A DNA stretch of 64,000 nt from Methanomassiliicoccales archaeon (GTDB lineage: Archaea > Thermoplasmatota > Thermoplasmata > Methanomassiliicoccales > UBA472), in assembly GCA_036504055.1 (NCBI GenBank), contig DASXVU010000034.1, positions 62,001-126,000 on the forward strand, written 5' to 3'. The notes under the pieces were generated by a model, which was given only the letters and a program-made list of their open reading frames with translations, was not told where the DNA came from and did no database searches. The position numbers and the translations under genes were made by a program. This document shows, in pieces, positions 15,641-42,394 of the stretch. Numbering within the stretch: position 1 is the stretch's first letter; every line of letters starts with the position of its first letter.

Positions 15641-17581
15641 ATGGCTTCTAGCAAGAAATTGGACGCCGTCCAACACGAAGTTCGCTTGGACCCAGGGGGG
15701 TCAACCGCTGAGGTCAGCCCCGCTTCTAAGGAAATTGAAGGAGCCGACCTGAGGTCTTGGCTGGAAGGCGGGGATGATTTTCTTGCTTGGCTCGATGAGG
15801 GTGCCGAAGATCCGCATGCAGCCGATAACAAGCAGGCGGCCGCTGTGGAGGCCAGCTCGGAATACGTCGCCGAGCTCAATGAGAAACTGAAGAAATATGA
15901 GGATGAACTGCGCCTGCTGAAGCAGAAACTGGCAGAGGCCTTTTTGGACAATGCCTCGGACCAGACCGGTAAGGATGTCGAGATCGATCTAGGCCGGAAA
16001 TTGCAGGAGCTGATCGAGGCGAAGGACCAGCTGGCGCTTGAGGTCGATCGGCTTCAGAAACTGAACAACGACATAAAGCAACACTTCGAGCAATCGCTCG
16101 TCAACGTCTCAGAGGATAAATCCTCCCTATTGATGAAGGAGATCGAGCTCAAGGAGAAGGAGTCCAAGCTCCTGACCCGGATGAGGGAGCTCGAGCTCAG
16201 GCAACGTGATGCGTCGAGCTACGCTTCCAAAGAGGTGGAGGCCAACCTGGAGGAGCGTTTCCATACCGAGCTCAGGCAGAAGGAGGCCGAATGGAGATAC
16301 AAGGAGCAACAGCTGCAGGGCCGTATCCAGGACATGGAGAAGGAGCTGCTCCGCCTCTCGATGGACCTGAAGCTCAAGGATGACAAACTCAAGTTGTCCA
16401 ACATGGGAAAGCCGGACATAGAGAAGGCAGTGGCCCAGAAGTACGAGGAGATGATGGCCAAGGAGAAGGAAGTTGCCATCATGCAGGGCGAACTGGACCA
16501 GATGAAGATCCAGATACGCGAGAAGGACGACGAGCTGAAGAAGATCAAGGACGTAATCACGTATAAGGAGGATGAGCTCAACCGCCGAGAGGAGGACATG
16601 ATGTATCGGGAGAAGGTCCTCTCCGGAGAGAAGCGCAAGTTCGAGGAGACCCGGAAGGAGCTCTCGGGCACCGACGAGGTGGAGCTCAAGAAGCGCATCG
16701 AGGAGCTCCGGAACGAGGTTCAGAAGAAGGAAGAGGACCTGCGGGCCAAGGAACGTTTCCTCAACGCCAAGGGCGAGGAGATCCGGATGCGCGAGTCCGG
16801 GCTTATCGAGGACGAGATCAAGGCCAGGGAGAAGGACCGGGTCCTGGAGGCCACCCAGGCCAAGGTGAAGACGGGAAATACCCGTTTGGACGACCTGCTG
16901 CTGGGCGGCATACCCTTCGGCTCCAACATCATGGTCCACGGGCCGCCGTTCGTCGGCAAGGAGGTCATGGTCAATTCATTCGTGGCGGAAGGCCTGAAGA
17001 AAGGCATTCCAGCGTTGTGGGTTATCACCGATAAGACCCCCAAGGACATCCGAGAGGAGATGAAGTTCGTATTGTCTGGCTATGATGAGTACGAAAGGAA
17101 GGGACTGGTCCGATACATCGATGCGTTCTCACGTTCGATGGGTGACGAGTCCAAGGACGAGTTCACCACCTACATAGACGAGCCGACCGACCACGAGAAG
17201 ATATCCGAGGCGGTCGAGAACATAACCAAGGCGTTCCGGGAAACCCACGAGTACTATCGCATGGCTTTCCGTTCCATATCCACCCTGATCGCATATTCCG
17301 ATCCGAACACCGCCTTCCGTTTCCTATCGCCGCTGTGCGGCAAGAGGAAGAGGGACAAGGCGGTCTCCATGTTCACCGTCGAGAAGGGAATGCATGGCGA
17401 GCAGGAGATCCAGATGCTCGGCTCGATCATGGACGGCATGATCGATTTCAAGGTCGACCAGCTGAAGACGTTCTTCTCGATCCAGGGTATCAGCGAGGTC
17501 CAATCCCGTGCCTACATCAGGTACACGTCATCGAAGCATGCCCTGCAGATCGGCTCGTTCGCTCTGGATCACATCAGGTAA
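15641..17581 (+). CDS. Long coiled-coil protein with C-terminal KaiC/FlaH-like RecA domain
   Basis: This 646-residue protein has an acidic N-terminus (SWLEGGDDFLAWLDEGAED). A long, highly charged heptad-rich coiled coil follows, from about 75 to 400. From about 405 it has a RecA/KaiC-superfamily domain opening with TRLDDLLLGGIPFGSNIMV. The P-loop is GPPFVGKE: the Ser/Thr that should follow the invariant Lys is Glu, so nucleotide hydrolysis is doubtful. KaiC-like proteins of this size act as FlaH in the archaellum motor, where FlaH binds ATP beside the FlaI ATPase and FlaJ. The gene lies just before the pilin and secretion ATPase operon on the same strand. I infer a FlaH-like scaffold or switch whose coiled coil could replace the FlaC/D/E proteins. 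A chemoreceptor-type adaptor is the alternative. Confidence 0.78.
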   Translation: MASSKKLDAVQHEVRLDPGGSTAEVSPASKEIEGADLRSWLEGGDDFLAWLDEGAEDPHAADNKQAAAVEASSEYVAELNEKLKKYEDELRLLKQKLAEAFLDNASDQTGKDVEIDLGRKLQELIEAKDQLALEVDRLQKLNNDIKQHFEQSLVNVSEDKSSLLMKEIELKEKESKLLTRMRELELRQRDASSYASKEVEANLEERFHTELRQKEAEWRYKEQQLQGRIQDMEKELLRLSMDLKLKDDKLKLSNMGKPDIEKAVAQKYEEMMAKEKEVAIMQGELDQMKIQIREKDDELKKIKDVITYKEDELNRREEDMMYREKVLSGEKRKFEETRKELSGTDEVELKKRIEELRNEVQKKEEDLRAKERFLNAKGEEIRMRESGLIEDEIKAREKDRVLEATQAKVKTGNTRLDDLLLGGIPFGSNIMVHGPPFVGKEVMVNSFVAEGLKKGIPALWVITDKTPKDIREEMKFVLSGYDEYERKGLVRYIDAFSRSMGDESKDEFTTYIDEPTDHEKISEAVENITKAFRETHEYYRMAFRSISTLIAYSDPNTAFRFLSPLCGKRKRDKAVSMFTVEKGMHGEQEIQMLGSIMDGMIDFKVDQLKTFFSIQGISEVQSRAYIRYTSSKHALQIGSFALDHIR

Positions 17582-18427: not shown

Positions 18428-19459
18428 ATGGTCAAAGTTGCCTTTAGAAAAAGGATTCTGAGCAAGTCGAGCCGAGCTCGATGCATGCGCAGGGATGAGG
18501 AGGGAGTAGCCTCGGTGATCGGGACGATCATGGCCTTGCTGATATTCCTGACCTTCATGTCCATGTTCGTTAACACCTACATCCCGATCTGGATGAAGGA
18601 GAACGAACGGCTGCACATGAACGAGGCCCAAAGCCAGATGGGAGAGGTCAAGGGCAAGATCGACAACCTAATCGTCAACACGCTCAACACTCTGATCGTC
18701 AATAAACAGGTCACCGGGGCCAGCTCGATCAATACCTACGAACCGATCACCATGGGAGCGGACGGCATTCCTCTGTTCGCCTCTGCCACCGCTGGTGCGA
18801 TCATTCTGAGACCGGTCGGGACCAGCTCCACCAGCGCTAACGTCCAGTTCAACTACACATCCAACAATCAAAGGATACCCATCAACGAAATGGGCGGTGG
18901 AAAGCTGGAGTTCTACGCGCCTAACCGGTATTACGTCGGCCAGTGGCTGGCGTACGAGAACGGCGCCCTGATCGTGAAGCAGGACGTGGGCGAGGCGATG
19001 AAGGCCTCACCCTCTCTGGAGATAACCAAGTCGGGCAACAGTTTCAACGTGATCTTCACCCAGATCGACATCTACGGGACCAACTCCACCATGGTCGGGA
19101 CCGGTGTGGCCGGTGTCAACATAAACCTCATCTACCTGGACATGCAAACGTATACCCCCCATTGGGGCTCCGATGCGAACCAAAACTCTACCGTATACAA
19201 GTTCAATACGGTATACAACGGGTCGCTCATGAACTTCTTGAAGACGACCTTGAAGGCAGCCGATCCGCTCGCCAACCTCAGCCTACCCGTTAAGATCGGG
19301 AGCACTACCACGTTCACCTTTAAGAACGGAGTCACCAATGAAGCGATACTTTCGGACACGCTCTTGGCGGACAAGTCCCATATGGTCACCCTTCAGGTTA
19401 TTAACACGGGAACGCTGACGCTCAGCCGTGCCTCCGTCCAGGTCGAAATAAGTGTTTAA
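18428..19459 (+). CDS. Type IV pilin-like / archaellin-like secreted protein (343 aa)
   Basis: A basic N-terminus (KKRILSKSSRARCMRRDEEG) is followed by a hydrophobic segment ASVIGTIMALLIFLTFMSMF. This matches the class III signal peptide and N-terminal helix of archaeal type IV pilins, with cleavage expected near Gly-Val before ASVIG. The remaining 300 residues are rich in Thr, Ser and Asn with several N-glycosylation sequons (NST, NGS, NLS), as in extracellular filament subunits. It is the only pilin-like gene in the window and is longer than most pilins, so it could be a minor or anchoring subunit. No prepilin peptidase is nearby. It leads the operon with two ATPases and two membrane platform proteins (12-base gap to the first). 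Confidence 0.78.
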   Translation: MVKVAFRKRILSKSSRARCMRRDEEGVASVIGTIMALLIFLTFMSMFVNTYIPIWMKENERLHMNEAQSQMGEVKGKIDNLIVNTLNTLIVNKQVTGASSINTYEPITMGADGIPLFASATAGAIILRPVGTSSTSANVQFNYTSNNQRIPINEMGGGKLEFYAPNRYYVGQWLAYENGALIVKQDVGEAMKASPSLEITKSGNSFNVIFTQIDIYGTNSTMVGTGVAGVNINLIYLDMQTYTPHWGSDANQNSTVYKFNTVYNGSLMNFLKTTLKAADPLANLSLPVKIGSTTTFTFKNGVTNEAILSDTLLADKSHMVTLQVINTGTLTLSRASVQVEISV

Positions 19460-19471
19460 TGAGGTTCCAGA

Positions 19472-21196
19472 ATGACAACTGAAGCAGATCCGATGGCAGG
19501 CGGCAACGGGAGGCTGGAGCCGCAGTCAAAGGTGAGCACCATGGAGAGGGCCAAGGAGAGCTACATGCGCTTCCTTAAGAAGGTGGCCCCCAACCGGGGG
19601 ATCAAGGTCATGCTCTCGGCCAAGGTAGTGGAACAGAAGCGCCTCCAGAAGGGCTCCCATGTCACCGATATCCCGGAGATCAAGAACCCCAACATCGAGG
19701 TCCTGGAAACATATGCGGTGAAGGAACCTTACAGCTATGTGCGGATCACGTTCAACAATGAGAACAGTGAATACCTGTATGAGGCGATCGAGCCTGAACT
19801 GAACAAGGAGGAAAAGGACCTCCTTGCCCTGGTCAAGGACACCCTGCAACGCACCCTTGGCTACGAGTGGGAGAAGCTCACCTCGCTTGACAAGGAGGAA
19901 TATCTGCGGGAGAGCGTGGACTCGTTCGTCCAGACCCGGGGGATCAAGATCGAACCGATCACCAAGAAGAAGCTCGGTTACTATATCATCCGTGACTTCG
20001 TCGGTCACGGGGTCATCGACGTCATGATGAGTGACGACGACATCGAGGATATCTCCTGTGACGGTTACAACATCCCCATCTTCGTCTCGCACCGGAAGTA
20101 CGAGTCCGTTCGTTCAAACATCATATTCGACAACGAGGACGCCCTGAACAATTTCGTCGTCACCCTGTCACAGAGGAGCGGGAAGCAGATCTCCGTGTCC
20201 AGCCCCATCCTTGACGGAACCACCATCGAGGGCCACCGGGTCCAGGCGACCTATTCGCGTGAGGTGACGACGCGCGGTTCTACATTCACCATCAGGCGGT
20301 TCAAGCACCGCCCGTTCACACCGGTCGACCTGCTGAAGTACAAGACCGTCTCCCCGGAGATGATGGCGTACCTGTGGCTGGGGGTCGAGAACGGCGAATC
20401 GATGATCCTGTGCGGCGGCACGGCGTCCGGCAAGACGTCGGCGCTGAACTCTCTGGCCCTCTTCATCCCGCCAGGCGCCAAGATAGTGACGATGGAGGAC
20501 ACCAGGGAGATCAACCTTCCCCACGATAACTGGATACCGGGCATGACCCGTACCGGTGTGGGGGAGAAGGACAAGGATGGCAAGTCCGCCGGCGAGATCG
20601 ACATGTTCGACCTGGTCCGTGCAGCGCTGAGACAGCGTCCGAACTACATCATCGTCGGAGAGGTCAGGGGAAAGGAGACGTACATAATGTTCCAGGCGAT
20701 GGCGACGGGACACTCCACCTACTCCACCATGCACGCCGATTCGGTGAAGTCCATGGTCAACAGGCTGGAGAACCCGCCCATCAACTGCCCCAGGATATTG
20801 CTGACCGCGTTGCGCAACGTGCTCATCCAGGCACAGGTCCGGGTGGGCAACGACCTTGTCCGTCGCATGAAGCAGGTCATCGAGATCGTCGGTTTCGAAC
20901 CGGAAACGAACGAGCTCATCACCAACACCGTCTATGAATGGGACCAGGCAACGGACCGGTTCATCTACAAGGGCCATTCGTTCCTTTTCGACAAGATCAT
21001 GGAGATGAAGTCGCTCACCCATGATGAGATGATGACCGAGTTCCAGAGGCGGATCGAGATCATCAATTATATGGTGTTCAAGGACATGACCGACTACCGC
21101 AAGATCTGGTCCATCACCAATGCCTATTACAAGGACCCCGAGAAGACGCTCACTAAGGTAAGGAAGGAGACCGAGGAGGGAAAGAATGTCGCCTGA
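19472..21196 (+). CDS. Type II/IV secretion ATPase, VirB11/TadA/FlaI family (first copy)
   Basis: This 574-residue protein has an N-terminal domain of about 290 residues typical of archaeal pilus ATPases. The Walker A motif is GGTASGKTS (315-323). The Asp box is MEDTREINLP (341-350), Walker B lies in YIIVGEVRGKE, and the His box is TYSTMHADS. These hexameric ATPases sit under the membrane and drive filament subunit insertion. It lies 12 bases after the pilin and overlaps the next gene by 11 bases. A second ATPase of the same length lies at 23155, so the operon carries a duplicated motor. The catalytic residues appear intact in both. Confidence 0.92.
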   Translation: MTTEADPMAGGNGRLEPQSKVSTMERAKESYMRFLKKVAPNRGIKVMLSAKVVEQKRLQKGSHVTDIPEIKNPNIEVLETYAVKEPYSYVRITFNNENSEYLYEAIEPELNKEEKDLLALVKDTLQRTLGYEWEKLTSLDKEEYLRESVDSFVQTRGIKIEPITKKKLGYYIIRDFVGHGVIDVMMSDDDIEDISCDGYNIPIFVSHRKYESVRSNIIFDNEDALNNFVVTLSQRSGKQISVSSPILDGTTIEGHRVQATYSREVTTRGSTFTIRRFKHRPFTPVDLLKYKTVSPEMMAYLWLGVENGESMILCGGTASGKTSALNSLALFIPPGAKIVTMEDTREINLPHDNWIPGMTRTGVGEKDKDGKSAGEIDMFDLVRAALRQRPNYIIVGEVRGKETYIMFQAMATGHSTYSTMHADSVKSMVNRLENPPINCPRILLTALRNVLIQAQVRVGNDLVRRMKQVIEIVGFEPETNELITNTVYEWDQATDRFIYKGHSFLFDKIMEMKSLTHDEMMTEFQRRIEIINYMVFKDMTDYRKIWSITNAYYKDPEKTLTKVRKETEEGKNVA

Positions 21197-22226
21197 AGTC
21201 TCAGATCTGTTCTCTAAGGTGGATTCCAGCAAGAGCACCTACATGAAGACCAAGAAGATTGGGGAGCACAAGAAGGAACTGGGACCGCGGGTGATCAGAC
21301 TGCCCGAGGGCGTCGTGCCGGACTATGTCAAGCTCACCAAGTACCAGGAATTCTGCTGGAGGACGATCGGAAAGATCGTGCGTCTCCGGGCCAAGCCCAA
21401 TCCCAAGCAGGAGTCATTGCTCCTACAGGCGCACATGCGCATGAGGCAGGAGGAGTTCGTCGCCTACGTATGGATGACGACCCTGCTGGTCGCCATCATA
21501 ACAATACTGATCAGCGTGTTCTTCGGGGCGGTATTCATAGCCGTGCTGAACATCAGCCCGGCCCTGACCATATTCTTCTCCGTGATGGTGGTGGTGATCC
21601 CCACCCTCATGACCTATGTGATCGTCAACAGCACTCCGGGTTCCAAGGCCAAGGCCCGAAAGCGCGACATCGACAAGCGCATCGGTCCGGCGATGTCGTT
21701 CATCTCCGCAATGGCCTCGGCCGACGTGAACATCGACGTCATCTTCAAGGAAATGTCCCGCCAGCCGATATACGGGGAGATCCAGAAAGAATCAGAATGG
21801 ATCACCAGGGACACGGAGCTTTTGGGCATCGATATCCTGACCGCCATCGGCAAGGCCGCACAACGCACGCCCTCGCAACGATTCCAGGAATTCCTTCAGG
21901 GGGTGGTGACCACCTCCACCTCCGGCGGACAGCTAAAGCCATATTTCCTGCAGAAGGCGGAGCAGTTCGAGAAGGAGCACAAGTTGGAGATCAGGGCCCA
22001 GCTGGAGAGCCTGGGACTGATGGCCGAATCGTTCGTCACCGTGGTCGTCGCATTCCCGCTTTTCCTGATCGTCATCATGGCCATCATGGCCATCGTGCCA
22101 GGCGGCGGGGGAAGTGCCGGGACCACCATAATGCTGCTCTACGCGGTGGTAGGGCTGATGGTGCCGGTATCCCAGTTCGGATTCATCTTCTTCATATGGA
22201 ACTCGACCAAGGAGTCGACAATGTGA
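21186..22226 (+). CDS. Type II secretion F-family membrane platform protein (TadC/FlaJ-like, first)
   Basis: This is a 346-residue protein. Two hydrophobic helices lie at about 93-140 and at least two more near 275-340, with the conserved cytoplasmic helical domain between (PAMSFISAMASADVNIDVIFKEM...). This is the T2SSF repeat layout of TadB/TadC and of one half of FlaJ. The protein anchors the pilus base and couples to the ATPase. A gagggaaag ribosome-binding site just before the ATG supports the start inside the previous gene. The cytoplasmic extension of about 90 residues before the first helix is long. It works with the next gene as a split platform. Confidence 0.88.
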   Translation: MSPEVSDLFSKVDSSKSTYMKTKKIGEHKKELGPRVIRLPEGVVPDYVKLTKYQEFCWRTIGKIVRLRAKPNPKQESLLLQAHMRMRQEEFVAYVWMTTLLVAIITILISVFFGAVFIAVLNISPALTIFFSVMVVVIPTLMTYVIVNSTPGSKAKARKRDIDKRIGPAMSFISAMASADVNIDVIFKEMSRQPIYGEIQKESEWITRDTELLGIDILTAIGKAAQRTPSQRFQEFLQGVVTTSTSGGQLKPYFLQKAEQFEKEHKLEIRAQLESLGLMAESFVTVVVAFPLFLIVIMAIMAIVPGGGGSAGTTIMLLYAVVGLMVPVSQFGFIFFIWNSTKESTM

Positions 22227-22235
22227 GGTGCTCCA

Positions 22236-23153
22236 ATGGCCACTGAAAAGAACCTGGATATAATGGACCTGAAGCAGCTCAAGAACGATAAGAGCGACCT
22301 CACCAAGACCATGCTGATCATCGGCATCGTCGTAGGCGTGATGTTCTTCCTCATCGGATTCCTGGACGCCATCGGCGGGCTGGAAACGCCATTGAACTGG
22401 ATCGACTATGTGGCGCTGGGCCTGATGGGCGTGTCCGGACCATACGGTTTCTACACCACCTACAGGCACAAGAAGGTCAAGAACATCGAGGCACGCCTTC
22501 CGGACTTCCTCAGGGATGTCGCCGAGGCAGGCCGTTTCGGAATGACCCTGGCGGAGGCGATCAAGGTCTCATCCCGAGGCAGGTATGGGCCGCTCACCCC
22601 GGAGATCCAGCGCATGGCCGCCCAGATCGAATGGGGTGTTCCGGCCGCCGAAGCTCTTAAACTGTTCGCGGAACGGGTCAACACGCCGTTGGTCAACCGT
22701 ATGATATCGATCATCATCAAGGCCAACGACGCGGGCGGCAGCGTTGCCGATGTCCTCACCATGGTCGCGCACGACTCTCGCGAGACCATGCTCGACCAGA
22801 GCGAGCGCAGCCTGGAGATGTCGACCTACACCGTCGTCATATACGTGGCGTTCGCGGTGTTCCTGGCCACCATCTTCATCCTGAACGCCACCTTCCTTCC
22901 GAAGATGGCGGAGGCCGGAGCGCAAGTGGCTGCGGGAGCGGAGGCGGCCGGCATCACGAACATGCCCGCCACCATCAAGACCGAGATCATCCCTCAGATC
23001 CAATTGATATTCGTCATATCGGTCGTCATCCACGCCTTCGGGGACGGCATACTGGCGGGCGTGCTGCAAGACGGCCGCATCGCCAATGGGCTGAGGCATT
23101 CCTTCATCATGCTGCTGCTCGGCCTGCTCGGAACCAAGTTGGGGGGTACCTGA
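22236..23153 (+). CDS. Type II secretion F-family membrane platform protein (TadB-like, second)
   Basis: This 305-residue protein has two helices near 25-75 (MLIIGIVVGVMFFLIGFLD and YVALGLMGVSG). A T2SSF cytoplasmic domain follows (LPDFLRDVAEAGRFGMTLAEA... ANDAGGSVADVL), then two or three C-terminal helices. The domain is the classic F-type motif. It starts 9 bases after the first platform gene and ends 1 base before the second ATPase, so translation is coupled. Together the pair corresponds to the two halves of an archaellum FlaJ or to TadB plus TadC. Confidence 0.88.
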   Translation: MATEKNLDIMDLKQLKNDKSDLTKTMLIIGIVVGVMFFLIGFLDAIGGLETPLNWIDYVALGLMGVSGPYGFYTTYRHKKVKNIEARLPDFLRDVAEAGRFGMTLAEAIKVSSRGRYGPLTPEIQRMAAQIEWGVPAAEALKLFAERVNTPLVNRMISIIIKANDAGGSVADVLTMVAHDSRETMLDQSERSLEMSTYTVVIYVAFAVFLATIFILNATFLPKMAEAGAQVAAGAEAAGITNMPATIKTEIIPQIQLIFVISVVIHAFGDGILAGVLQDGRIANGLRHSFIMLLLGLLGTKLGGT

Positions 23154-23154
23154 G

Positions 23155-24879
23155 ATGGAAGCTTCAAAAGAACCGATGGCTGAGATCGATGCGGTCCTGA
23201 AGGGGGATCACGAGCCCGCGGTCAAGATGACCGCCATGCAGGGGTTCAACAGTAAGTACCTCGGGTTCCTGCTGAAGGTGAAGGGCCGGCCCATGAAGGT
23301 CATGCTCCCTTCCGGAAAGATACAGCCTGAGCTCGACTCGGAGGTCATCACCGAGGTGCCGAAGATAGCGGATGTCAACGTGGACGAGGTCGAGGTGACC
23401 CCCGTTTTCAAGCCATATTCGTTCGTGCGGATCAAGTTCGACAATACTTCCTCCGAATACATCTATGAGGTCATAGAGCCGCACCTCACTGAGGACGAGA
23501 CCTACCTGCTGGATATGCTGAAGTCCTCCCTCATCGTCACGCTCAACCTGCCGGTCAGGAAGACGGGCAAGGAGAAGATGGACATACTGCGCAAGGCGAC
23601 CGACGAGCTCCTCAGGATCTTCGACGTCAGCCCGAATGCGCTGTCCAAGGAACGCATATTGTACTACCTGCGGCGGGACTTCATCGGTTACGGAGCGATA
23701 GACGTGATGATGCTCGACCCGAACGTAGAGGATTGTTCCTGCGACGGCGTCAACATCCCGCTCTACATATTCCACCGTAAATACGGTTCGATCAAGTCCA
23801 ACGTCAAGTTCGAGAAGGAGCTGGAACTGGACTCGTTCGTGGTCTGGCTGGCCCAAAAGTGCGGAAAGCACATCTCGGTCGCCAGCCCGATGCTGGACGC
23901 CACGATCCCGGACGGGAGCAGGCTCAACGCGACGCTGGGCATGCACGTCACCAAGAGGGGATCGTCCTTCACCATCAGGCGGTTCAAGGAGAATCCGTTC
24001 ACGCCCATCGACCTGCTCAAGTTCAAGACCATGAGCACGGAGATGATGGCCTATCTTTGGATATCCACCGAGTTCGGTTCGTCCATGCTGGTCTGCGGCG
24101 GTACCGCTTCCGGCAAGACGACCACCCTGAACGCGGTGCTGCTGTTCATTCCGCCGCAGAAGAAGATCATCAGCATTGAGGACACCAGGGAACTGAACCT
24201 GCCCCACGAGAACTGGATACCTGGACTGACCAGGGAAGGTTTCGGTGGAAAGAAGATGAACAGCACCGGATCGGTGGACATGTTCGACCTGCTGACCGCG
24301 GCGCTGAGGCAGCGTCCAGATTACCTGATGGTCGGTGAGGTGAGAGGCAAGGAAGCATACGTCGTCTTCCAGGCCATGGCCACCGGCAAGACGTCCTATT
24401 CCACGTTCCACGCAGAGGACGTCCAGGCGATGGTGCACAGGATGGAGAACGACCCGATCAACCTGCCCAGGGCGTTGATGACCGCACTGGACATCGTCAT
24501 GCTGCAGGCCCAGGTAAAGGTCGGCACGAAGATGACCAGGAGGGTCAAGTCCCTGACCGAGATCGTCGGCATGGACTCGGAGACCGGGGAACTGATCACC
24601 AACGCGGTGTTCAGCTGGAACCCGGCGGACGACACCTTCAACTTTTCCGGTCATTCGTACATCTTCGAGAAGGTGAGGACCATCAAGTCCTGGTCCCCCA
24701 GGGAGATGGAGCGTGAGGTGAAGCGCCGGGTCGAGATCCTTGAGTACATGAAGAAGATCGGCGTGGACAACTACAAACAGGTGGCCAGGATTATCTCGGC
24801 ATACTACAAGAACCCGGAGCGCGCCATGAAGGAGATCCGGGAGAAGATGACCGCCACACAGCTGCCCCCTCCCCAGTGA
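23155..24879 (+). CDS. Type II/IV secretion ATPase (second copy)
   Basis: This 574-residue protein is paralogous to the ATPase at 19472 along its whole length, with the same domain order: N-terminal region, Walker A GGTASGKTT near 314-322, Asp box IEDTRELNLP, GEVRGKE and the His box SYSTFHAED. The His box and the linker after the Asp box differ from the first copy, as expected for specialised motors rather than a recent duplicate. Two ATPases on the same platform suggest either different partners or opposing activities. The stop codon lies inside the loop of a strong terminator. Confidence 0.92.
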   Translation: MEASKEPMAEIDAVLKGDHEPAVKMTAMQGFNSKYLGFLLKVKGRPMKVMLPSGKIQPELDSEVITEVPKIADVNVDEVEVTPVFKPYSFVRIKFDNTSSEYIYEVIEPHLTEDETYLLDMLKSSLIVTLNLPVRKTGKEKMDILRKATDELLRIFDVSPNALSKERILYYLRRDFIGYGAIDVMMLDPNVEDCSCDGVNIPLYIFHRKYGSIKSNVKFEKELELDSFVVWLAQKCGKHISVASPMLDATIPDGSRLNATLGMHVTKRGSSFTIRRFKENPFTPIDLLKFKTMSTEMMAYLWISTEFGSSMLVCGGTASGKTTTLNAVLLFIPPQKKIISIEDTRELNLPHENWIPGLTREGFGGKKMNSTGSVDMFDLLTAALRQRPDYLMVGEVRGKEAYVVFQAMATGKTSYSTFHAEDVQAMVHRMENDPINLPRALMTALDIVMLQAQVKVGTKMTRRVKSLTEIVGMDSETGELITNAVFSWNPADDTFNFSGHSYIFEKVRTIKSWSPREMEREVKRRVEILEYMKKIGVDNYKQVARIISAYYKNPERAMKEIREKMTATQLPPPQ

Positions 24880-25075: not shown

Positions 25076-28000
25076 TCACTCCTTCTTTTGCTCCTCTGGC
25101 ACCGATTCAGGCGAGTGCTCTGTCTCAGGGTTGTCCTTCACTACCTTCTTGGGGACCATCTTGCGGTCCGATGACCGCTTGACGATCTTACGGAAGGGCT
25201 TGGCCTGTTCTCCAGACTCTGCCGCCGATGCCATTTCCAGAGCCTTGTCGAACACGGTGCCGCACTTGGAGCATATGGTCGCGCCCTTCGGGTTGAGGGT
25301 GCCGCATGTCGGGCAGGGCAGGGAGCTTGCCTTTCGGTCCTCCTCCTTCTTGGCCACCCAGGCCTCAAAGGTCACATACGCCGGCTCGGTCTTGAGCCAG
25401 TCCATGAACTTGTCCTCGGAGTACTTCTTCCCCAGGGCGGCCTTGGCCTGTTCCCTGAACCCGTTGATGTACTCGTCGTACTGCCTCCTCATGGAGGACA
25501 TGTAGTCGTCGGTGGATATCTCCTCAACCGGCTCGGTCATGAACTTCGCTCCACATTCGGGGCATTCCTTCGACCTGGACGGTATCCAGGTACCGCACTC
25601 GGAGCACTTTGCGGTATCCGCCTCGAACTCGGTGCCGCAGCGTGGGCAGCGCTTCGAGCTCTCCGGGATCAGCGCGCCGCATTCGCCGCACTCCACCATC
25701 TTGCCCAATCCATACTTGTACAGATAGACCGAGAAGACCAGGATGACCGCAATCACTATGATCGCGATGATCGCGAACACCCAGAGCGGGACACCCTGTG
25801 CGTTGAATATCTTCATGACGTTGATCGGGACCGAATTCGAGTAGACCGCACCTGAGTTCATCGTCACGCTCACCGAGTGCGAGCCGGACCGGTCCGTCGG
25901 CACGAATACGAAGCTGCTATAGGCCCCGGTGCCGTCGGTCTTGGTCGTGATAGCGTCACCCACTGGCAGACCGGCAGAGTCCAGCAGCCTGATGGTCAAC
26001 GATTGGTTGGCCAGGGCATAGCTGCCGTCCTTGTTGGTGATCATTCCGGACACCGGTATCGATTCCCCCGGTTGGAAGTCTGTCTTGGAACCGACACTGA
26101 TGGTGATCATCGGGTTAGGTATGTTGACCGCGAACGCCCGGCTGTCGATGTTGTTGGTGTAGTTGGATTCCTCGATCACGTGCCTCGAGTTCATCTCCAC
26201 CACCAAAGAATAGGTGCCAGATGTGACGTTCACCACCCACGGGAAGGATATCTGGACCGATGCGCCTCCGGACAGGTCCCGGATCATGCTCATCAGGAGG
26301 TGCTTGTAGTTGTCGCTGTCCTTCACGTATATCTCGAGGACCGCCCCGTTCGCTGCCTTCAGGCCTTCATTGCCCATTACAAATGTTATGTCTATCGTCT
26401 GGCCTTGGACCGCTTGCGACGTCGAGTTACTGCCGGACGACGATTTCACGGACACACCGGCCGGGAACCAGAGGTCAGCCCGGTTGTCCACCACGAGCAG
26501 CGAGCTGGAGATTATGTTGTTCTCATAGGTCATCTCCATGACCGGGGTGTCATTGCCGTGGGTGAAGGGATTTACCTCCACCGTGATCATGCGGCTCTGG
26601 TTACGGCCCGATCCATCGACGGAGGCGGCGATCCAGCCCATCTGTATGTCGGTTGTCGCACCTGCGTTGATGCTCGGGACCACCACATCACCGATCTTCG
26701 TGCCGGTGCTAGCAGTTCCCAGCCAGAAACGGACCAGGAAGTCCGATGCTACGTATTCGCCCGTGTTCATCACCGTCGCGCTAAGCATAACGGAGTCTCC
26801 GATGAACACCTGAGTGACCACCGACCCGGAACTCGACAGCTTGAACTGGAGGTTCGTGGCCACCAGGTCCGGGTAGTTCATGACCTTGACGATGACGCCG
26901 GCAATGTTGTTGCCCTTGGAGGCCTCCAGGAGTGTGTTGTTCTCATCGATCACGACTGTTATGTTATGATCGCCCGGCAACATGTGCTGCCAGGTAGCGA
27001 AGGCCACTCCGGTCTGGCCGCCGCGTATGGCGGGTAAGGTGAAATTGCCGATGGAGATCCTGAGGCCGTGGAACACATCGTAGAAGCGGATCACGGCCGT
27101 CTGGTCCATATCATCTCCGCCATTCACGATGTCCGCCCGGATGGACACCGTGGAGTTGGTCTCGACGATGGCCGGATTGATGGAGATCTGGCCGGGGAGA
27201 ACGCTCAGATCGGGGACACCCTGGACCGATACGGTCGTTTGGTTCCAGTTGTTGCTGCGGTTCAGTTGCGGGATGGCTCCGAACGGGTCGACGGTGACAT
27301 TGAGGGTATGGTTCCCGACCGGATAGACCACGGTCCAGAGGACCGTTATGTTCGAGTGCTCGCCTGGGGCGATCGACGTGATCGTCTGGTCCGCAATTAT
27401 GGCACCGGTGGTCAGGTCCTTGAAGCGGACAAGAACGCTGTAAGCGTTCACCACTCCATTATTTGTTATGTTGGCAATTAGGCCCACCGAAGCGCCCCTG
27501 GCGGGGCTATAATCGGACGCCCAGAAGGGCGGGTCCAGCTCGGGCAAGGCGCCGAGGATGTTCACATTGATCGCGATGTCGCTCTTGGCGATCTCGCTGC
27601 CATTGTCATTGTTGATGAGCCCGTCCGGAGAGACCTGGGTGTAACGTGCGTTGATGGCTCCGGTGCTATCGTATCGGACACCGTGGAACCAGTAGGTGGC
27701 GTTCACCCGGTAGTTGTCATTGAAATGGGATGCGCCATAGCGATTGATCCAATCGGATAGCAGGTTGAACGTGGCCTTACCGTCCGCACCGGTGATGGCG
27801 GTTGCATAGGACATACCGGTCGACCGGTCCAGTTCGACGAACGCTCCGGCTATCCCGTGGACCAGTGTCCCGTCCATGACCGTCACGGTCAACAGACGGT
27901 AGCTCCAGGCCCTGGCATCGTCCTGGAGGTGAATCGCCGGGATGGATACGCTCGTCAGCACTGCCGTCGCCTGACCCCCGAAGTTGGCTATGCCAGCCTG

Positions 28001-30697
28001 CAAAGTGACGTTGGTGGCGGTCAGGTTGCCGAACGATGTGGAGGGGGCAGTGATGTTCGAGGCCACAAAATTGCTGTCGGTCAGGGTGACCTTCGAATGA
28101 CCATCAATATTGATGTTGACGAATCCGGTCAGGATCGATCCGTTACGGGCCGACATGACAGCGTTGTCCTTCAGGAATATCGTCATCTCACTGTTCGCGG
28201 TTATCGTTCCAGACGTGAGCTCTATCGACCCTGATCCGGAGACGGTTATCTTGAACTGGTTCGGGTGATCATTGAGGATGCTAAGAAGGCCGGATGTGAT
28301 GATCAGCCTGGCATTGTCCCTGACCTCGATGTCGCCTTTTATCGACACGGGGGCATCGCCGCTGATGACCCATACCATTGTTCCGGTGAGAATCGTCGGT
28401 CCGTGGATCACCGACAGCGTCGGGAACATCACATCCCTTTCATCGACATTATTGATCATATTAGGGAAATGCCTGAAGTTGGTCGATATTCCTCCATTGC
28501 TGTCATCCATCACATAAAGGACCTGGCTCTGGGTCCGGTACTTGAAGACCAGGTTATAATCGAATGCCTTTCCGTTCCTTAGGTTGGAGCTGTTCAGCAC
28601 ATCGCTGAGCAACGGGATCGTTACCATTCCGGAGGTGGCGGTCCTGTTGAAATTGGCTGCGGTCTTGCCTAGATAGTTGAGAATGGCCTGTGGCGGTGCC
28701 GCCACTGCGCCTGATTGATCTAGATAATATGCTATGGCTCCAGTGCCCGCATTACTGGACGTCACACCGACGTTTCCAACCGGTATTAGTTGGTTGTCGG
28801 TAACTTCTAAGGAAACCCAACGGTAGAGTGCTACTTGTGGTTGAGTTTGAATATTAATGAACATACGATCAAAATGGATCGTTGCCCCACCGGCGTTAGC
28901 AAATGACAGTGTAAGTGTTCTCAGTTTGTCGATGGAATTTACACCATTAGCATAAAGATCGAAAGGTCCAATAGTTGTTTGACCTAGGTTCAGAGAAGGT
29001 CTCATGTTGGTATTCTTCAGTGCTGACCCACCAAATGAATACTGGATATAGTTCGTTTGAGCGTATGAGGCTTCAGTATAGTATACAAATGATACCGTTA
29101 AACTCTTTATCGAGCCCGTCAATTCTCCAATATTATACTTTACGATATTCATTGTTTGTCCGATGGATAGATCGTAAGTCAGAGCATCGCCTTGAGCGTA
29201 TAGCCCATTAACATTCTCTCCAGTTCCATCGTTCGTACCATTCGCCGTAATTACTTTTGCCAGATTCCTTGTTTTGAAGACGTTGGTACCGAAGTATCCG
29301 CCGGTGCTGTTCTGGACGGTCATGCCGTACAAGTTGGCGATCGACTGATCCAAGGCAACTAGTTTGTGGTAGGCGCCTTGTGTCGCATCCGTCCCGTTGT
29401 TCTCATTGATGTTGTTGAGCGGGATGTAGGTGTCGGCAACGACCAGGTTCGTCGATCCGCCTATGGTTATGTTGCGGTAGGTCGGCAGCTTCAGATCGAT
29501 CGTTACCCAGATCCTGTCGATGTAAACGTTGCCAGCCTTGGTGTTGGTGTAGTCCAGTGTCATCTTGCTTAGGCTCTGAGCGGCCATGTCGGGCAAGACT
29601 TGATCGTCGGTGACGTTAAAGTTCGTTCCAGAAGGATCGTCAGCCCGGAACGTGGGGACAATGTCAATTGCGGTGGGCGTCGCGGTCCCATACTGCGGAG
29701 TGTAGGAGAATACGCCGTGAGAACCGGCCGCCGCACTTGTGCTGGTCTTATAGCTCACGTGTAGAACGATGCCTCCAGGGACGATGTCCGTTGCCTCGAA
29801 CACCAATCCGCCCATGTCGAAACCGGTCGTGACAAGTCTCTGGGTGGCTGCGACGGTCACGTTCCTGGTGTCGTTCATTGTCATCGACAGTGCATTCTGG
29901 CCAGTGACTGTGCTTAAAATAGGATCGAACGCGGCGTTGACATCCCTCTCCAGGAAGTAGTCCACGTACTGTCGAGCCTTATTGTCCTTGGCGAACTGGT
30001 AATTGAAACTGTAAGGTCCCGGATTGGCCGTAACGGAGTTGTATGTTCCGTTGTCGTACATGTTCAGGACCCTGGAGCCGATCATGGATACCTCGCTGGA
30101 CATGAACAGCATGACCGGGGAACTGCTGAAAACCTTGGTCGGGAAGTAGACCGAATTGTAAGCCAGCTCCGCTCCGGAAATGGTGGAATCGATCAGTGAG
30201 AATCTGGCATCGTCGACCAGAAGGTGTCCCGAGAACGATATGTTCGACATCCGTGACTCGAGGTAGCCACCGTGCCTGACAACCACTCCTAGTGCTGGAA
30301 TGATACTGCTTCTGATGGTGTCAACGGTCAATGTTGAGTTGTCGAGTATCAGTATGCCGCCATCCTCTATGGTCAGGGTCAATGCATTGATACCCGCCCC
30401 AACCGGTGTGGCTCCTGAATATGATGAAGAGAATATCACTGTTGAATTGATGATCTGGACCATGCCGCCGGCCCTTATGGTGAGGCTATTTTGGATCCAT
30501 TTCCCGCCATCATCGTGGATCGTGAAGTTATCACCATATCCGGTACCAACTATTGTGTCCCCATTCAGGACCTCCCCCTGGGCCGATACCCCCACCTCAG
30601 GTACGGCAATGAGCAATACCCCGAGGAAGGACGAGATCACCATGCACCATACGATTGCGAAGCTAACAAGCTTGTTGAACCCAGCACCCAGCTTCAT
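25076..30697 (-). CDS. Giant CARDB-repeat surface protein with TM helix and cytoplasmic zinc-ribbon tail
   Basis: This is an 1873-residue protein. An N-terminal signal or anchor (FAIVWCMVISSFLGVLLIAV) is followed by about 700 residues of beta-rich repeats. At least four CARDB-like domains occur between about 1050 and 1500 (for example NYPDLVATNLQFKLSSSG and DLSVLPGQISINPAIV), and a last beta domain ends near 1630. One hydrophobic helix (VFAIIAIIVIAVILVFSVYLY, about 1635-1655) precedes a cytoplasmic tail. That tail has two adjacent zinc ribbons (CGECGAL...CPRCG and CSECGTW...CPECG), a helical segment, a third ribbon (CPTCGTL...CSKCG) and a basic, Lys-rich end. The ectodomain is full of N-glycosylation sequons. 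It is an envelope protein; the intracellular ribbons suggest it binds a cytoplasmic partner. It lies opposite the pilus operon. Confidence 0.82.
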   Translation of the reverse strand: MKLGAGFNKLVSFAIVWCMVISSFLGVLLIAVPEVGVSAQGEVLNGDTIVGTGYGDNFTIHDDGGKWIQNSLTIRAGGMVQIINSTVIFSSSYSGATPVGAGINALTLTIEDGGILILDNSTLTVDTIRSSIIPALGVVVRHGGYLESRMSNISFSGHLLVDDARFSLIDSTISGAELAYNSVYFPTKVFSSSPVMLFMSSEVSMIGSRVLNMYDNGTYNSVTANPGPYSFNYQFAKDNKARQYVDYFLERDVNAAFDPILSTVTGQNALSMTMNDTRNVTVAATQRLVTTGFDMGGLVFEATDIVPGGIVLHVSYKTSTSAAAGSHGVFSYTPQYGTATPTAIDIVPTFRADDPSGTNFNVTDDQVLPDMAAQSLSKMTLDYTNTKAGNVYIDRIWVTIDLKLPTYRNITIGGSTNLVVADTYIPLNNINENNGTDATQGAYHKLVALDQSIANLYGMTVQNSTGGYFGTNVFKTRNLAKVITANGTNDGTGENVNGLYAQGDALTYDLSIGQTMNIVKYNIGELTGSIKSLTVSFVYYTEASYAQTNYIQYSFGGSALKNTNMRPSLNLGQTTIGPFDLYANGVNSIDKLRTLTLSFANAGGATIHFDRMFINIQTQPQVALYRWVSLEVTDNQLIPVGNVGVTSSNAGTGAIAYYLDQSGAVAAPPQAILNYLGKTAANFNRTATSGMVTIPLLSDVLNSSNLRNGKAFDYNLVFKYRTQSQVLYVMDDSNGGISTNFRHFPNMINNVDERDVMFPTLSVIHGPTILTGTMVWVISGDAPVSIKGDIEVRDNARLIITSGLLSILNDHPNQFKITVSGSGSIELTSGTITANSEMTIFLKDNAVMSARNGSILTGFVNINIDGHSKVTLTDSNFVASNITAPSTSFGNLTATNVTLQAGIANFGGQATAVLTSVSIPAIHLQDDARAWSYRLLTVTVMDGTLVHGIAGAFVELDRSTGMSYATAITGADGKATFNLLSDWINRYGASHFNDNYRVNATYWFHGVRYDSTGAINARYTQVSPDGLINNDNGSEIAKSDIAINVNILGALPELDPPFWASDYSPARGASVGLIANITNNGVVNAYSVLVRFKDLTTGAIIADQTITSIAPGEHSNITVLWTVVYPVGNHTLNVTVDPFGAIPQLNRSNNWNQTTVSVQGVPDLSVLPGQISINPAIVETNSTVSIRADIVNGGDDMDQTAVIRFYDVFHGLRISIGNFTLPAIRGGQTGVAFATWQHMLPGDHNITVVIDENNTLLEASKGNNIAGVIVKVMNYPDLVATNLQFKLSSSGSVVTQVFIGDSVMLSATVMNTGEYVASDFLVRFWLGTASTGTKIGDVVVPSINAGATTDIQMGWIAASVDGSGRNQSRMITVEVNPFTHGNDTPVMEMTYENNIISSSLLVVDNRADLWFPAGVSVKSSSGSNSTSQAVQGQTIDITFVMGNEGLKAANGAVLEIYVKDSDNYKHLLMSMIRDLSGGASVQISFPWVVNVTSGTYSLVVEMNSRHVIEESNYTNNIDSRAFAVNIPNPMITISVGSKTDFQPGESIPVSGMITNKDGSYALANQSLTIRLLDSAGLPVGDAITTKTDGTGAYSSFVFVPTDRSGSHSVSVTMNSGAVYSNSVPINVMKIFNAQGVPLWVFAIIAIIVIAVILVFSVYLYKYGLGKMVECGECGALIPESSKRCPRCGTEFEADTAKCSECGTWIPSRSKECPECGAKFMTEPVEEISTDDYMSSMRRQYDEYINGFREQAKAALGKKYSEDKFMDWLKTEPAYVTFEAWVAKKEEDRKASSLPCPTCGTLNPKGATICSKCGTVFDKALEMASAAESGEQAKPFRKIVKRSSDRKMVPKKVVKDNPETEHSPESVPEEQKKE
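28790..29270 (-). other. Low-GC module inside the giant surface protein gene
   Basis: Across this stretch GC falls sharply: bases 29041-29100 have 22 G+C of 60 and 29101-29160 have 20 of 60. Bases 27241-27300 of the same gene have 36 of 60. It encodes about residues 476-636, a segment starting near the NLAKVITANG stretch and ending near FDRMFINIQT. The reading frame is unbroken. The base change suggests that the module was acquired or recombined separately. Confidence 0.6.
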
Positions 30698-30885: not shown

Positions 30886-32061
30886 TCACTTCCTCTTGAT
30901 TATCTTTCGTATAGAAACGGAGCGTTTCACTTCTGATCTCTTTTCCTCTTCCTGCTCCTTGTGCTCCTCGGCCGGTTCCTCCTCGACGTGCTTCTCTTCC
31001 TCGGCCGGTTCCTCGATGTGTTTCGGCTCAGGCTCTTCCTTCTTCGGTTCGGGCTTGCGAGAGTCCTTCTTCTTTGGGGCCTCGACCAGTTTGCCGTCCT
31101 TGAGCTTCGCGTCGCAGGCCCAGCAGTGTTCTGACTTGGAATCGATGATGGTGGCGCAGTTGGGGCACTCGAACTCCTTCCGCTCCTCGGCCGGTGCCTC
31201 CTGGGCGATCTCCTCTTCCTCGGCCGGTGCCGGTTCCTCTGCCTTTTCTTCGGGCTCCTCGATGGGCGCCGGGATCGACTTCATCTGAGGGGCATCGTCC
31301 TCGACACTGGCCTCCATATGGGCGGCGTTGTCCTCCTCCATCATCTCCTCGGGCTTGGCCTCCTCGAAGGCCGGCTCGGGAATGACCGGTCTGACCGTTG
31401 TCTTGGCGCGGCGTCCCTCCATCGCTTCCCTCTGGGTGAGGGCCTTCTCCCTTTCCGTCAGGGTGCGCTCCCATTCGACGAAGCGCTTCTGCTCGTCCAA
31501 CATGAGCTTCTTGCTGTTGGCCAGCAGATCTCCCTGCTCTTCCACGACCTTGATCTTGGCGAGCAGTTCCTCCCTTCTGGCGCTCATCGACTCTAACATC
31601 TTCTTCAGGTCTGACTCTCCGGAAAGCATGCGCTCTTCCATCTTGGAAATGCGTTCTCCGGAGTCACGCAACCGCTTTTCATAGCCGGAGGTGAGCTCGG
31701 TCAGCCGGAGCAGTTCGGACTCCTGCCTTGCGATCTCCCCCTGACGCCGGTCCAGGTTCTCCCGGCTTGCCTGGATGTCCTCCTCCCTGCCCTGCAGGTC
31801 GGTCTGCATCCGGTTCAGGTCCTCCTGGAATTTGGCGACCCGGTTCTCCCTGGGCGCAAGGTCCGACTCTCGCTTCTTGAGCTCGGACTCCTTTCTCCCC
31901 AGGTCTCCCTCCCTGTCGGCCAGATCGCGCTCGTCGGAATGCAGCCTGGACTCCATCCCATCGAGGTCCTCGCGACGCTTCTTGAGGTCTGCCTCTTGGT
32001 TCTTGATCTTGTCCTTGAACTCCTCTATGACCTGCCATATCGGTACTGAATCATCTGCCAT
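30886..32061 (-). CDS. Coiled-coil protein with one zinc ribbon and a basic C-terminus
   Basis: The product is 391 residues from the ATG at 32061, preferred because a gcgggga stretch precedes it; a start at 32076 adds five residues. Residues 5-200 are a highly charged coiled coil with a repeating RE-rich pattern. A linker of acidic Glu/Pro repeats follows. Near residues 297-315 there is a single zinc ribbon (CPNCATI...CWACDAKL). The C-terminus is Glu/Lys-rich and ends VSIRKIIKRK. That end resembles FRKIVKR in the cytoplasmic tail of the neighbouring giant surface protein. It follows the KaiC-like gene by 19 bases and probably shares its transcript. I infer a cytoplasmic scaffold that links the KaiC-like ATPase to the surface protein. 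Confidence 0.72.
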   Translation of the reverse strand: MADDSVPIWQVIEEFKDKIKNQEADLKKRREDLDGMESRLHSDERDLADREGDLGRKESELKKRESDLAPRENRVAKFQEDLNRMQTDLQGREEDIQASRENLDRRQGEIARQESELLRLTELTSGYEKRLRDSGERISKMEERMLSGESDLKKMLESMSARREELLAKIKVVEEQGDLLANSKKLMLDEQKRFVEWERTLTEREKALTQREAMEGRRAKTTVRPVIPEPAFEEAKPEEMMEEDNAAHMEASVEDDAPQMKSIPAPIEEPEEKAEEPAPAEEEEIAQEAPAEERKEFECPNCATIIDSKSEHCWACDAKLKDGKLVEAPKKKDSRKPEPKKEEPEPKHIEEPAEEEKHVEEEPAEEHKEQEEEKRSEVKRSVSIRKIIKRK

Positions 32062-32080
32062 TGGTATTCCCCGCATTTCC

Positions 32081-32782
32081 CTAGGCCAATGTCGGCCCTA
32101 GAATCGTGACTCCATGATCGCCCACTTCCATCGTGTGGCGTTCCATCGAATGCTCGGTGGCCCTCATCTTCTCAACGCGCATGTACCGTACCAGCTTTCC
32201 CCGGGTACGGTCCAGGCCTAGCTCGATGATCCCGTCCACCAGGAATCCCTCGTTCCCGAGCAGGTCGGAAGGTGTGCCGGGATTGCGCTCCATGACGATG
32301 AACGACATGAGATTGTAATCCCTTAGCGTCTTGAAGAAGTAGAACATCTTCTTGCGCATGCCCTTGACATCGTCCATCAGGGAATACAGCGCCCCGAGCG
32401 AGTCCAGGCTGAAGACTGTGAACCGGTCTCCATGCTTCTTCTTGTAGTATCCTATGGTCTGTATTATGAATTGGAGATAATCGGTCGGCGAATCCACCTC
32501 TACGATCTCGTCAAGTTCGCGCAGGTCGGTGAAATCGGAGATCTCGAGGTTCGATGTCAATTTCAGGTTCAGCGACCTCATGTTCCTGATGTGGCTGTCG
32601 GCCGTCTCCTCTAGAGTGATGTAAAGGCCGAACTCGTTGGTCTTGTCCAGATATGAGGACATCATCGAGTAGCAGAACGAGGTCTTCATGGAGCCTGGGG
32701 GGCCGGTGATCAGCACCACCTTGGGGACCTCGATGTCCGTCCTGAATACCTTGTCCAAACCTTGAATGGAATTCCTGAACAC
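32081..32782 (-). CDS. Stand-alone KaiC-like / RAD55-type ATPase
   Basis: This is a 233-residue single RecA-fold domain. The Walker A is GPPGSMKTS (27-35), with Met replacing the usual second Gly; Walker B is in FTVFSLDSLGALY (about 120-132). The beginning SIQGLDKVF matches the KaiC/RAD55 entry strand. Members of this group signal or regulate through ATP-dependent oligomers. The start is GTG at 32782, preceded about 45 bases upstream on the minus strand by the AT stretch gtttattac. It is the first gene of a three-gene minus-strand unit with the coiled-coil/zinc-ribbon gene and, after a gap, the surface protein. It is the second KaiC-like ATPase in this locus. Confidence 0.83.
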   Translation of the reverse strand: MFRNSIQGLDKVFRTDIEVPKVVLITGPPGSMKTSFCYSMMSSYLDKTNEFGLYITLEETADSHIRNMRSLNLKLTSNLEISDFTDLRELDEIVEVDSPTDYLQFIIQTIGYYKKKHGDRFTVFSLDSLGALYSLMDDVKGMRKKMFYFFKTLRDYNLMSFIVMERNPGTPSDLLGNEGFLVDGIIELGLDRTRGKLVRYMRVEKMRATEHSMERHTMEVGDHGVTILGPTLA

Positions 32783-41335: not shown

Positions 41336-42379
41336 TTGCAGCCTCAGTTCGGTGTCCCGCCTGGCGTCCTGGTCGAGCAGCGGCGCGGAGGCCAGAAGTC
41401 CCTGAGATCCCTCCTGGACCTGATGAGGGACCCCCATTTCACCGGATATCTCATGACCGGGATGACCCTGGACGAGGACACCACCAACGGCGTCATAGTT
41501 GTGGATGTCGGCAAGGCGATCCTGGCTCTGTACGCCTTCCGCCCGTCAGGCAATAACAGCGTGGAGATGACCTACCGGGGAGAAAGGGCGGTGGAGTTCA
41601 CCTGCGGGGACGCACTGTGCCCGGAGTCGCAGCTAGAACTGCACGCGCTCAAGGACCTGAAGGAGATCAAGAAGATCATCGGTGAGGCAAAGGATGGTGT
41701 GGACCTTCCACATTTCCTCGATAATTTCTACCATGACCGGCTGGAAGAGACGGTCCATCAGCCGGAGCCGGTCTCGTTGGGGGTTAAAAGCGACCCCTGC
41801 CATCAACCGGCACCTCAAACGGATTCTCTCGACTCGATCAAGGACCTGATCGTGCAGCATCACAAACGGAACGCCGAAGGAGGCGCCAGGAAGGCCGGAT
41901 ACCACGAACTGGAGATCGATATCGTGGAGGGCGAGTCATACCTGGTGGAGGAACAGACAAGGGACTTCTCCTACGGGATCTTCGCCTCAATGGTGGACGA
42001 CAACTACAAGGGCATCGGCATAACCCGGATCAATCCCAGACTTCTACGCTCGAGGATCAGCGGAGCAAAGCCCCGCTTGCTCTGGTTGACCGACCATGAG
42101 TCCACCCAGGAGGAGACCATACCTCCGTCACTGGAGAAGATCATGGTGGTCCTGGAGGAGTTCATCCTCAATAACGAGCTGAGCGTGGTGTTGGTGGACG
42201 ATCTGCAGTACCTGATAAGCTGCAACACCTTCGAAGGAGCGGTGAGATTCATCCGTAACCTGGTGGACAAGATATCGGAGCGCTCGGCGGTGTTCCTTCT
42301 GTCCGTCGACCCGAACTCGCTAAGCGCCCAGGAGCGTTCCGTCCTGGAAAGGGAATTGCGGGTGGTGCGGGACCGTTGA
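41336..42379 (+). CDS. DUF835 domain protein (347 aa)
   Basis: The C-terminal half (about 195-345) carries the DUF835 pattern: ESYLVEEQTRDFSYGIFASMV, then GITRINPRLL, KPRLLWLTDHE, VVLVDDLQYLISCNTFEGAV and SVLERELRVV. The domain has a RecA-like look without a P-loop and is found in archaeal signalling proteins. The N-terminal half (about 150 residues) is a separate small alpha/beta domain with a conserved-looking pattern (GVIVVDVGKAILALYAF). The start is probably TTG at 41336, about 33 bases after an AT-rich box (gatttaagc), so leaderless; no in-frame ATG lies nearby. It lies downstream of tRNA-Thr. Its target is unknown. Confidence 0.72.
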   Translation: MQPQFGVPPGVLVEQRRGGQKSLRSLLDLMRDPHFTGYLMTGMTLDEDTTNGVIVVDVGKAILALYAFRPSGNNSVEMTYRGERAVEFTCGDALCPESQLELHALKDLKEIKKIIGEAKDGVDLPHFLDNFYHDRLEETVHQPEPVSLGVKSDPCHQPAPQTDSLDSIKDLIVQHHKRNAEGGARKAGYHELEIDIVEGESYLVEEQTRDFSYGIFASMVDDNYKGIGITRINPRLLRSRISGAKPRLLWLTDHESTQEETIPPSLEKIMVVLEEFILNNELSVVLVDDLQYLISCNTFEGAVRFIRNLVDKISERSAVFLLSVDPNSLSAQERSVLERELRVVRDR

Positions 42380-42394
42380 TCACGAAGGAAGTGT

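Follow-up and report, generated by a model that had tools for sequence, protein, structure and literature searches.

How the motors of archaeal pili sit in the cell envelope, and how KaiC-like ATPases reach them, are questions most acute in the Thermoplasmata, some of which have no S-layer (PMC12448462). Both questions arise in the window, our name for the whole stretch of 64,000 nucleotides analysed here, which belongs to a genome of 2.66 Mb in 49 contigs whose closest named relatives are Methanomassiliicoccales genomes, followed by further Thermoplasmata, among them Candidatus Sysuiplasma and archaea from soil. The window encodes a giant surface protein, hereafter BIG, that carries zinc ribbons on its tail: what does this tail hold, and for which machine? 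A preliminary description of the locus had read the frame as a CARDB-type ectodomain of more than 1600 residues, a single membrane helix and three zinc ribbons with a helical spacer, had called this domain order unusual, and had proposed that the tail docks an intracellular partner. The 1873-residue frame proved exact, and AGGTG lies directly 5′ of its start codon. Its features are as follows.

25076..30697, minus strand: giant surface protein BIG, 1873 aa, ATG start
30581..30697, minus strand: signal peptide, residues 1-39 (hydrophobic N-terminus, putative cleavage site)
27593..30580, minus strand: N-terminal half of the ectodomain, residues 40-1035 (predicted beta-solenoid, two jelly-roll modules, second solenoid, Ig-like module)
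26138..27535, minus strand: CARDB Ig-like repeats, about residues 1055-1520 (Pfam PF07705, four stretches; approximate boundaries)
25724..25792, minus strand: single transmembrane helix, residues about 1636-1658 (hydropathy, helix in model)
25637..25690, minus strand: zinc ribbon 1, C1670-C1687 (Pfam, invariant Cys, AlphaFold2 model)
25553..25606, minus strand: zinc ribbon 2, C1698-C1715 (same three lines of evidence)
25328..25519, minus strand: helical spacer, residues about 1727-1790 (conserved signature and AlphaFold2 model)
25262..25315, minus strand: zinc ribbon 3, C1795-C1812 (Pfam, invariant Cys, AlphaFold2 model)
25175..25192, minus strand: basic motif RKIVKR, residues 1836-1841, within the disordered C-terminal end

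The ectodomain has the size claimed for it, about 1600 residues, but it does not consist of CARDB repeats throughout. The Pfam CARDB match is strong (E 3.8e-35, 120.6 bits against a gathering score of 22.7) and covers about residues 1055-1520, while the N-terminal half, about residues 38-1050, is modelled as solenoids and jelly rolls, with an AlphaFold2 mean pLDDT of 78 for the first ~1000 ectodomain residues. The two jelly-roll modules also appear as an internal sequence repeat (about 295-401 and 505-618). Foldseek returned many partial matches to the ectodomain, among them reelin repeats, BcsB and CBM22, with low whole-model TM scores, and these matches serve solely to name fold types. Beyond the signal peptide, the only strong hydrophobic stretch is at residues 1636-1654, which bears out the single membrane helix of the preliminary description. 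On either side of this helix the composition of BIG changes sharply: 36 N-glycosylation sequons and not a single Cys lie on the ectodomain side, whereas the tail combines 12 Cys with 0 sequons. The same contrast recurs in 27 BIG homologues (0-12 Cys in the ectodomain; 12-16 Cys and 0-1 sequon in the tail), nearly all of which have Lys or Arg after the membrane helix. This partition of Cys and sequons, together with the basic residues after the helix, supports a cytoplasmic tail, a placement that we judge likely on sequence grounds. The ectodomain is probably glycosylated and seated in the cell envelope.

The tail itself, of ~210 residues, contains six CxxC pairs (1670/1673, 1684/1687, 1698/1701, 1712/1715, 1795/1798 and 1809/1812), and all 12 of these Cys are invariant across 21 BIG orthologues. 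Pfam Zn_Ribbon_1 matches in three stretches (E 6.6e-12) and DZR is also found, the zinc-ribbon scores of 45.3 bits (cut-off 25) and 39 bits (cut-off 27.3) agreeing with paired CxxC knuckles. An AlphaFold2 model of the tail built with the 21 orthologues (mean pLDDT 76) places two ribbon hairpins directly below the membrane, followed by spacer helices at model positions 96-125, 128-135 and 144-157 (protein residues 1729-1758, 1761-1768 and 1777-1790). Beyond these helices come ribbon 3 and a C-terminal stretch modelled as disordered. The three ribbons and the helical spacer were thus correctly recognised from the outset, with the spacer lying between ribbons 2 and 3. Among 18 near-complete Methanomassiliicoccales orthologues, identity to the window protein per 40-residue block is 44-73% in the tail, the variable last 33 residues falling outside this range, versus 17-41% in the ectodomain, and across the class the spacer carries the signature MR.QY...R..AK..GKKYS..KF..W.K..P....FE.W...EE. 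Conservation well above that of the ectodomain, and a class-wide spacer signature, indicate that the tail is more than a membrane holder.

Searching solved structures with the tail profile gave weak zinc-finger matches at most, and Foldseek gave no global match to the tail; single ribbons alone matched, including those of RNA-binding zinc fingers and, weakly, the ArnAB entry 8s05_C. The domain order is less unusual than had been claimed, for large surface proteins that combine a double ribbon with one helix are also encoded in other Thermoplasmatota classes, where pilus genes are mostly not close by. These proteins have no spacer, which marks the BIG tail architecture as a class-specific elaboration of a broader theme. 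Variation also occurs within the class: in family f12 the tail differs beyond the spacer, where a ribbon at the extreme C-terminus stands in for both ribbon 3 and the basic motif, and CARDB was not found in two f12 members that retain the tail. In one orthologue (L024 / G025:C6:59774-60451) the tail frame contains one TAG, which could be read through or could simply be the gene end; the order to which this orthologue belongs includes members that use pyrrolysine.

Convergent with BIG in the window is a type IV pilus operon (18428-24879), a context that the preliminary description had overlooked.

18428..19459, plus strand: pilin-like protein, 343 aa, class III-like signal (EGVAS and a hydrophobic helix)
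19472..21196, plus strand: type IV pilus secretion ATPase E1, FlaI/PilB3-like
21186..22226, plus strand: TadC/FlaJ platform protein half F1
22236..23153, plus strand: TadC/FlaJ platform protein half F2
23155..24879, plus strand: type IV pilus secretion ATPase E2 (nearest solved structure 2oap, 448.7 bits)

E1 and E2, of the VirB11/FlaI type, both match T2SSE and PilB3_C, and the Walker A sequence GGTASGKT is present in 17 E1 and 20 E2 orthologues. F1 and F2 match T2SSF (E 1.8e-12 and 8.2e-20) as the two halves of a TadC/FlaJ platform. The pilin-like protein has no Pfam match, and a simple pattern finds the class III-like site in 38 of its 48 homologues. From the PilB3_C matches, from afGspE (2oap) as nearest structure and from the statement on Aciduliprofundum boonei in PMC4858521, we infer that E1 and E2 belong to pilus clade 2. 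Membership in the archaellum was considered and rejected, since E1 and E2 score 413.8 and 444.5 bits against a FlaI equivalog cut-off of 550, and the KaiC-like ATPase encoded upstream of BIG scores 21.9 bits against an ArlH model cut-off of 215. Across the class the operon keeps both secretion ATPases intact, one on either side of the split TadC/FlaJ pair (19472-24879 in the window), and the two ATPases could be separate extension and retraction motors.

In all 20 Methanomassiliicoccales loci taken, BIG adjoins the pilin-E1-F1-F2-E2 operon to the extent that the contigs cover it, and the same holds class-wide for most loci with sufficient flanking sequence. The two are mostly convergent; they are co-directional in Sysuiplasma-type loci (L081, L083, L097, L099; L134), and other gene orders occur in L128 and L136. 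Linkage that outlasts such rearrangement argues for a joint function over and above recent common ancestry. Co-inheritance points the same way: across 151 Thermoplasmata genomes, the tail was found in 92, F2 (at 190 bits or more) in 94 and both in 89 (Fisher p 3e-31, without phylogenetic correction). In the large sister family f2, the tail and the pilus are both missing from every genome searched except G054, which has both. The exceptions are five genomes with a pilus gene and no detected tail (G016, G100, G140, G158, G164) and three with a tail and no F2 (G082, G139, G167). The pairing also persists where the genes lie apart, as in L124/L125 and L126/L138. We consider the link between BIG and the pilus strong, and the conclusion that BIG is a component of the Thermoplasmata pilus machine well supported.

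A further set of genes lies near BIG, the first two, directly upstream, being candidate partners.

30886..32076, minus strand: ccZn, a coiled-coil protein with one zinc ribbon and C-terminal RKIIKRK, 396 aa
32081..32782, minus strand: KaiC-like ATPase, 233 aa (Pfam PF06745, E 7.6e-36)
15641..17581, plus strand: coiled-coil protein with a C-terminal KaiC-like domain (P-loop GPPFVGKE, without Ser/Thr)
41336..42379, plus strand: DUF835 protein (inactivated KaiC-like domain), linked to kaiC-ccZn-BIG in soil Thermoplasmata
42395..43471, minus strand: double zinc-ribbon helical protein, likewise linked to kaiC-ccZn-BIG in soil Thermoplasmata

On the same strand as BIG, ccZn, the KaiC-like ATPase and then gyrA-gyrB follow one another upstream, and the ATPase and ccZn hold this position in most Thermoplasmata. 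The ATPase scores 124.1 bits for the KaiC family domain and has a P-loop, GPPGSMK[TS]S, with Met where the last Gly is usual; few proteins of the locus are as well conserved, its orthologues being 67-86% identical (median 75.5%, versus 62% for gyrA). A coiled-coil/KaiC-like gene of the 15641-17581 type lies upstream of the pilus operon in Methanomassiliicoccales. In soil Thermoplasmata (L086, L087, L105, L122, L133), the DUF835 gene and a divergent double zinc-ribbon gene stand directly before kaiC-ccZn-BIG; in the window this pair (41336-43471) lies beyond gyrBA and a thiC-like gene. Outside the class, at L144:2662-11563, the gene for a giant protein with a zinc-ribbon tail stands between a coiled-coil KaiC-like gene and a DUF835 gene, all three on the same strand, a hint that their association predates the class. 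Gyrase linkage was dropped as a functional clue because soil lineages lack the adjacency. Two neighbouring frames deserve mention in their own right: the gyrA frame (32948-37105, minus strand, 1385 aa) includes an intein-like segment, many relatives being about 850-880 aa and others similarly long, and the frame at 47070-52451 (minus strand) encodes a protein of 1793 aa that matches an ATP-dependent helicase (PRK13767) over its first 860 residues.

The KaiC-like ATPase has the narrowest distribution, nested within that of BIG, which is in turn nested within that of the pilus. Its orthologue was found in 63 genomes, 59 of which also have the tail, and was not found in 33 tail-bearing genomes, so we rejected KaiC as the sole docking partner. 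An example is L123, a single contig of 1,486,778 bp, in which BIG abuts the pilus operon and neither a KaiC nor a coiled-coil gene lies beside BIG. We take L123 to be A. boonei, and it has the two-ATPase layout reported for that organism.

BIG and ccZn, otherwise unrelated, carry the same C-terminal peptide. The motif [RK][RK][IV][IVL][RK][RK] follows the last ribbon in 68 of 76 complete BIG tails (0.1 expected by shuffling) and ends 29 of 34 ccZn proteins (0.2 expected), counts that include related sequences; three of the eight motif-less entries are unrelated zinc-ribbon proteins from neighbouring genes, counted along with the tails. The occurrence of one peptide on two proteins of a single locus suggests that both fit the same binding site. 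The motif or a close variant is kept in two genomes in which the KaiC orthologue was not found (G054 = L137 and G069 = L123), and its partner is therefore probably not KaiC alone. Together with the constraint on the tail and the co-inherited KaiC-like and coiled-coil neighbours, the shared motif lends good, if indirect, support to the cytoplasmic docking tail proposed earlier.

On balance, we think it probable that BIG is a trans-envelope anchor and adaptor of the two-ATPase pilus machine, with a tail that recruits either the KaiC/coiled-coil module or the motor ATPases. The large ectodomain would hold to the cell envelope and the one helix would cross the membrane, and the double ribbon beneath it, the helical spacer, the third ribbon and the basic peptide would form a cytoplasmic docking platform. 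This platform would recruit the upstream-encoded KaiC-like ATPase and ccZn, or the pilus motor ATPases, and the pilus motor would thereby be tied to the envelope and open to regulation by the KaiC module. Computation shows the domain order, the likely topology, the strong constraint on the tail, co-inheritance and linkage with the pilus operon, and the motif shared with ccZn; the identity of the partners, and a purpose in anchoring or recruitment rather than in sensing, we infer. Several observations weigh against this reading: the few genomes that have either the tail or the pilus gene alone, the 33 tail-bearing genomes in which the KaiC orthologue was not found, the altered tail end in family f12, and the zinc-ribbon tails of surface proteins outside the class, which mostly do not neighbour pilus genes.

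The main rival is that BIG is a transmembrane receptor that relays glycan or surface contact through its tail to a KaiC-like hub, with the pilus turned on or off as a result. An association of KaiC-like ATPases with type IV pili has been described, and a regulatory role proposed for them (PMC4858521), three KaiC-fold proteins are encoded near the cluster in the window (at 32081, at 15641 and the DUF835 protein at 41336), and the jelly-roll modules of the ectodomain resemble carbohydrate-binding domains. However, the ectodomain is a single long, fast-evolving region without a recognisable sensor domain, Pfam finds no HAMP, PAS or kinase domain in BIG, and BIG persists where the KaiC orthologue is missing, all of which makes a receptor doubtful. 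Less likely again is that BIG is an ordinary membrane-anchored S-layer protein or adhesin whose ribbons merely stabilise the anchor and whose pilus link reflects a shared surface function. Large C-terminally anchored S-layer-like proteins do occur in archaeal pilus loci (PMC4858521), and zinc-ribbon tails are found on surface proteins elsewhere in the phylum; yet it is the tail and not the ectodomain that is conserved, and a spacer and a motif held in common with a cytoplasmic protein exceed what an anchor needs, so that this reading appears improbable. A tail that binds nucleic acid, with BIG holding DNA, either of the nucleoid or on its way in, at the base of the pilus, or with the pilus serving DNA transfer, is very improbable: zinc ribbons and basic C-terminal peptides could bind nucleic acid, RNA-binding zinc fingers are among the single-ribbon matches and gyrA-gyrB is directly upstream in many loci, but the tail is near neutral overall (36 K/R versus 37 D/E from residue 1641), soil lineages have the DUF835 and zinc-ribbon genes in place of gyrase, and no competence gene was seen nearby.

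The anchor and adaptor reading can be extended, tentatively, to a wider scheme that we regard as unlikely in its entirety, in which one giant trans-envelope protein would replace the archaellum's separate stator and cytoplasmic ring in a distinct pilus-family machine of the Thermoplasmata. The BIG tail and ccZn would present their shared basic peptide to one partner on the motor side, and the KaiC-like ATPase would so control two motor ATPases, perhaps for extension and retraction. A conserved link between surface and motor, with a ~210-residue tail and a short shared motif, lends itself to a direct binding test, and BIG offers a marker gene for the pilus system across the class, including methanogens and uncultured soil archaea. 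A literature search for CARDB, zinc ribbon and transmembrane returned nothing, and no description of BIG or its zinc-ribbon tail was found in open-access main texts.

The closest known relatives of this system are the archaeal pilus loci surveyed by Makarova, Koonin and Albers in 2016 (PMC4858521), who described C-terminally anchored S-layer-like proteins and KaiC ATPases in such loci and, for A. boonei, a single locus that combines two ATPases with one pilin-like gene. Neither CARDB nor zinc occurs as a word in the survey's main text, where we likewise found no mention of the zinc-ribbon-tailed giant protein, its co-inheritance or the shared motif. Loci of euryarchaeal clade 2, as in A. boonei, resemble the BIG locus in having two distinct secretion ATPases and one pilin-like gene, and in them two TadC-like genes are common and KaiC ATPases have been noted nearby. 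The S-layer-like proteins of arCOG05471 are, like BIG, large, secreted, encoded in pilus loci and equipped with one C-terminal membrane helix; their conserved Cys have been described as possibly forming disulphides, whereas those of BIG lie in the cytoplasmic tail. ArnA, a regulator of the Sulfolobus archaellum, is likewise a zinc-ribbon protein that acts on a type IV pilus-family machine, but it is described as an FHA-domain protein, whereas the ribbons of BIG form a membrane-anchored tail without an FHA domain. A 2017 study in mBio reportedly presents KaiC-like ATPases as signalling hubs in archaea; as papers citing it describe them, these hubs resemble the BIG locus in that several KaiC-fold proteins cluster with membrane proteins, and differ in their output, for no known output domain was identified at the BIG locus, where the proposed output is the pilus motor. 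The archaellum, whose KaiC-like ArlH is well known (PMC12448462), shares with the BIG system a KaiC-like ATPase, a FlaI/FlaJ-type motor, coiled-coil cytoplasmic proteins and an envelope anchor (ArlH, ArlI, ArlX or ArlC/D/E, and ArlF/G); it differs in that ArlF, ArlG and ArlX were not seen at this locus, where BIG would be the anchor as one trans-envelope protein. By analogy, the ensemble of BIG, KaiC and motor may function like the archaellum core, and BIG itself is probably a hitherto undescribed accessory part of a familiar type of machine.
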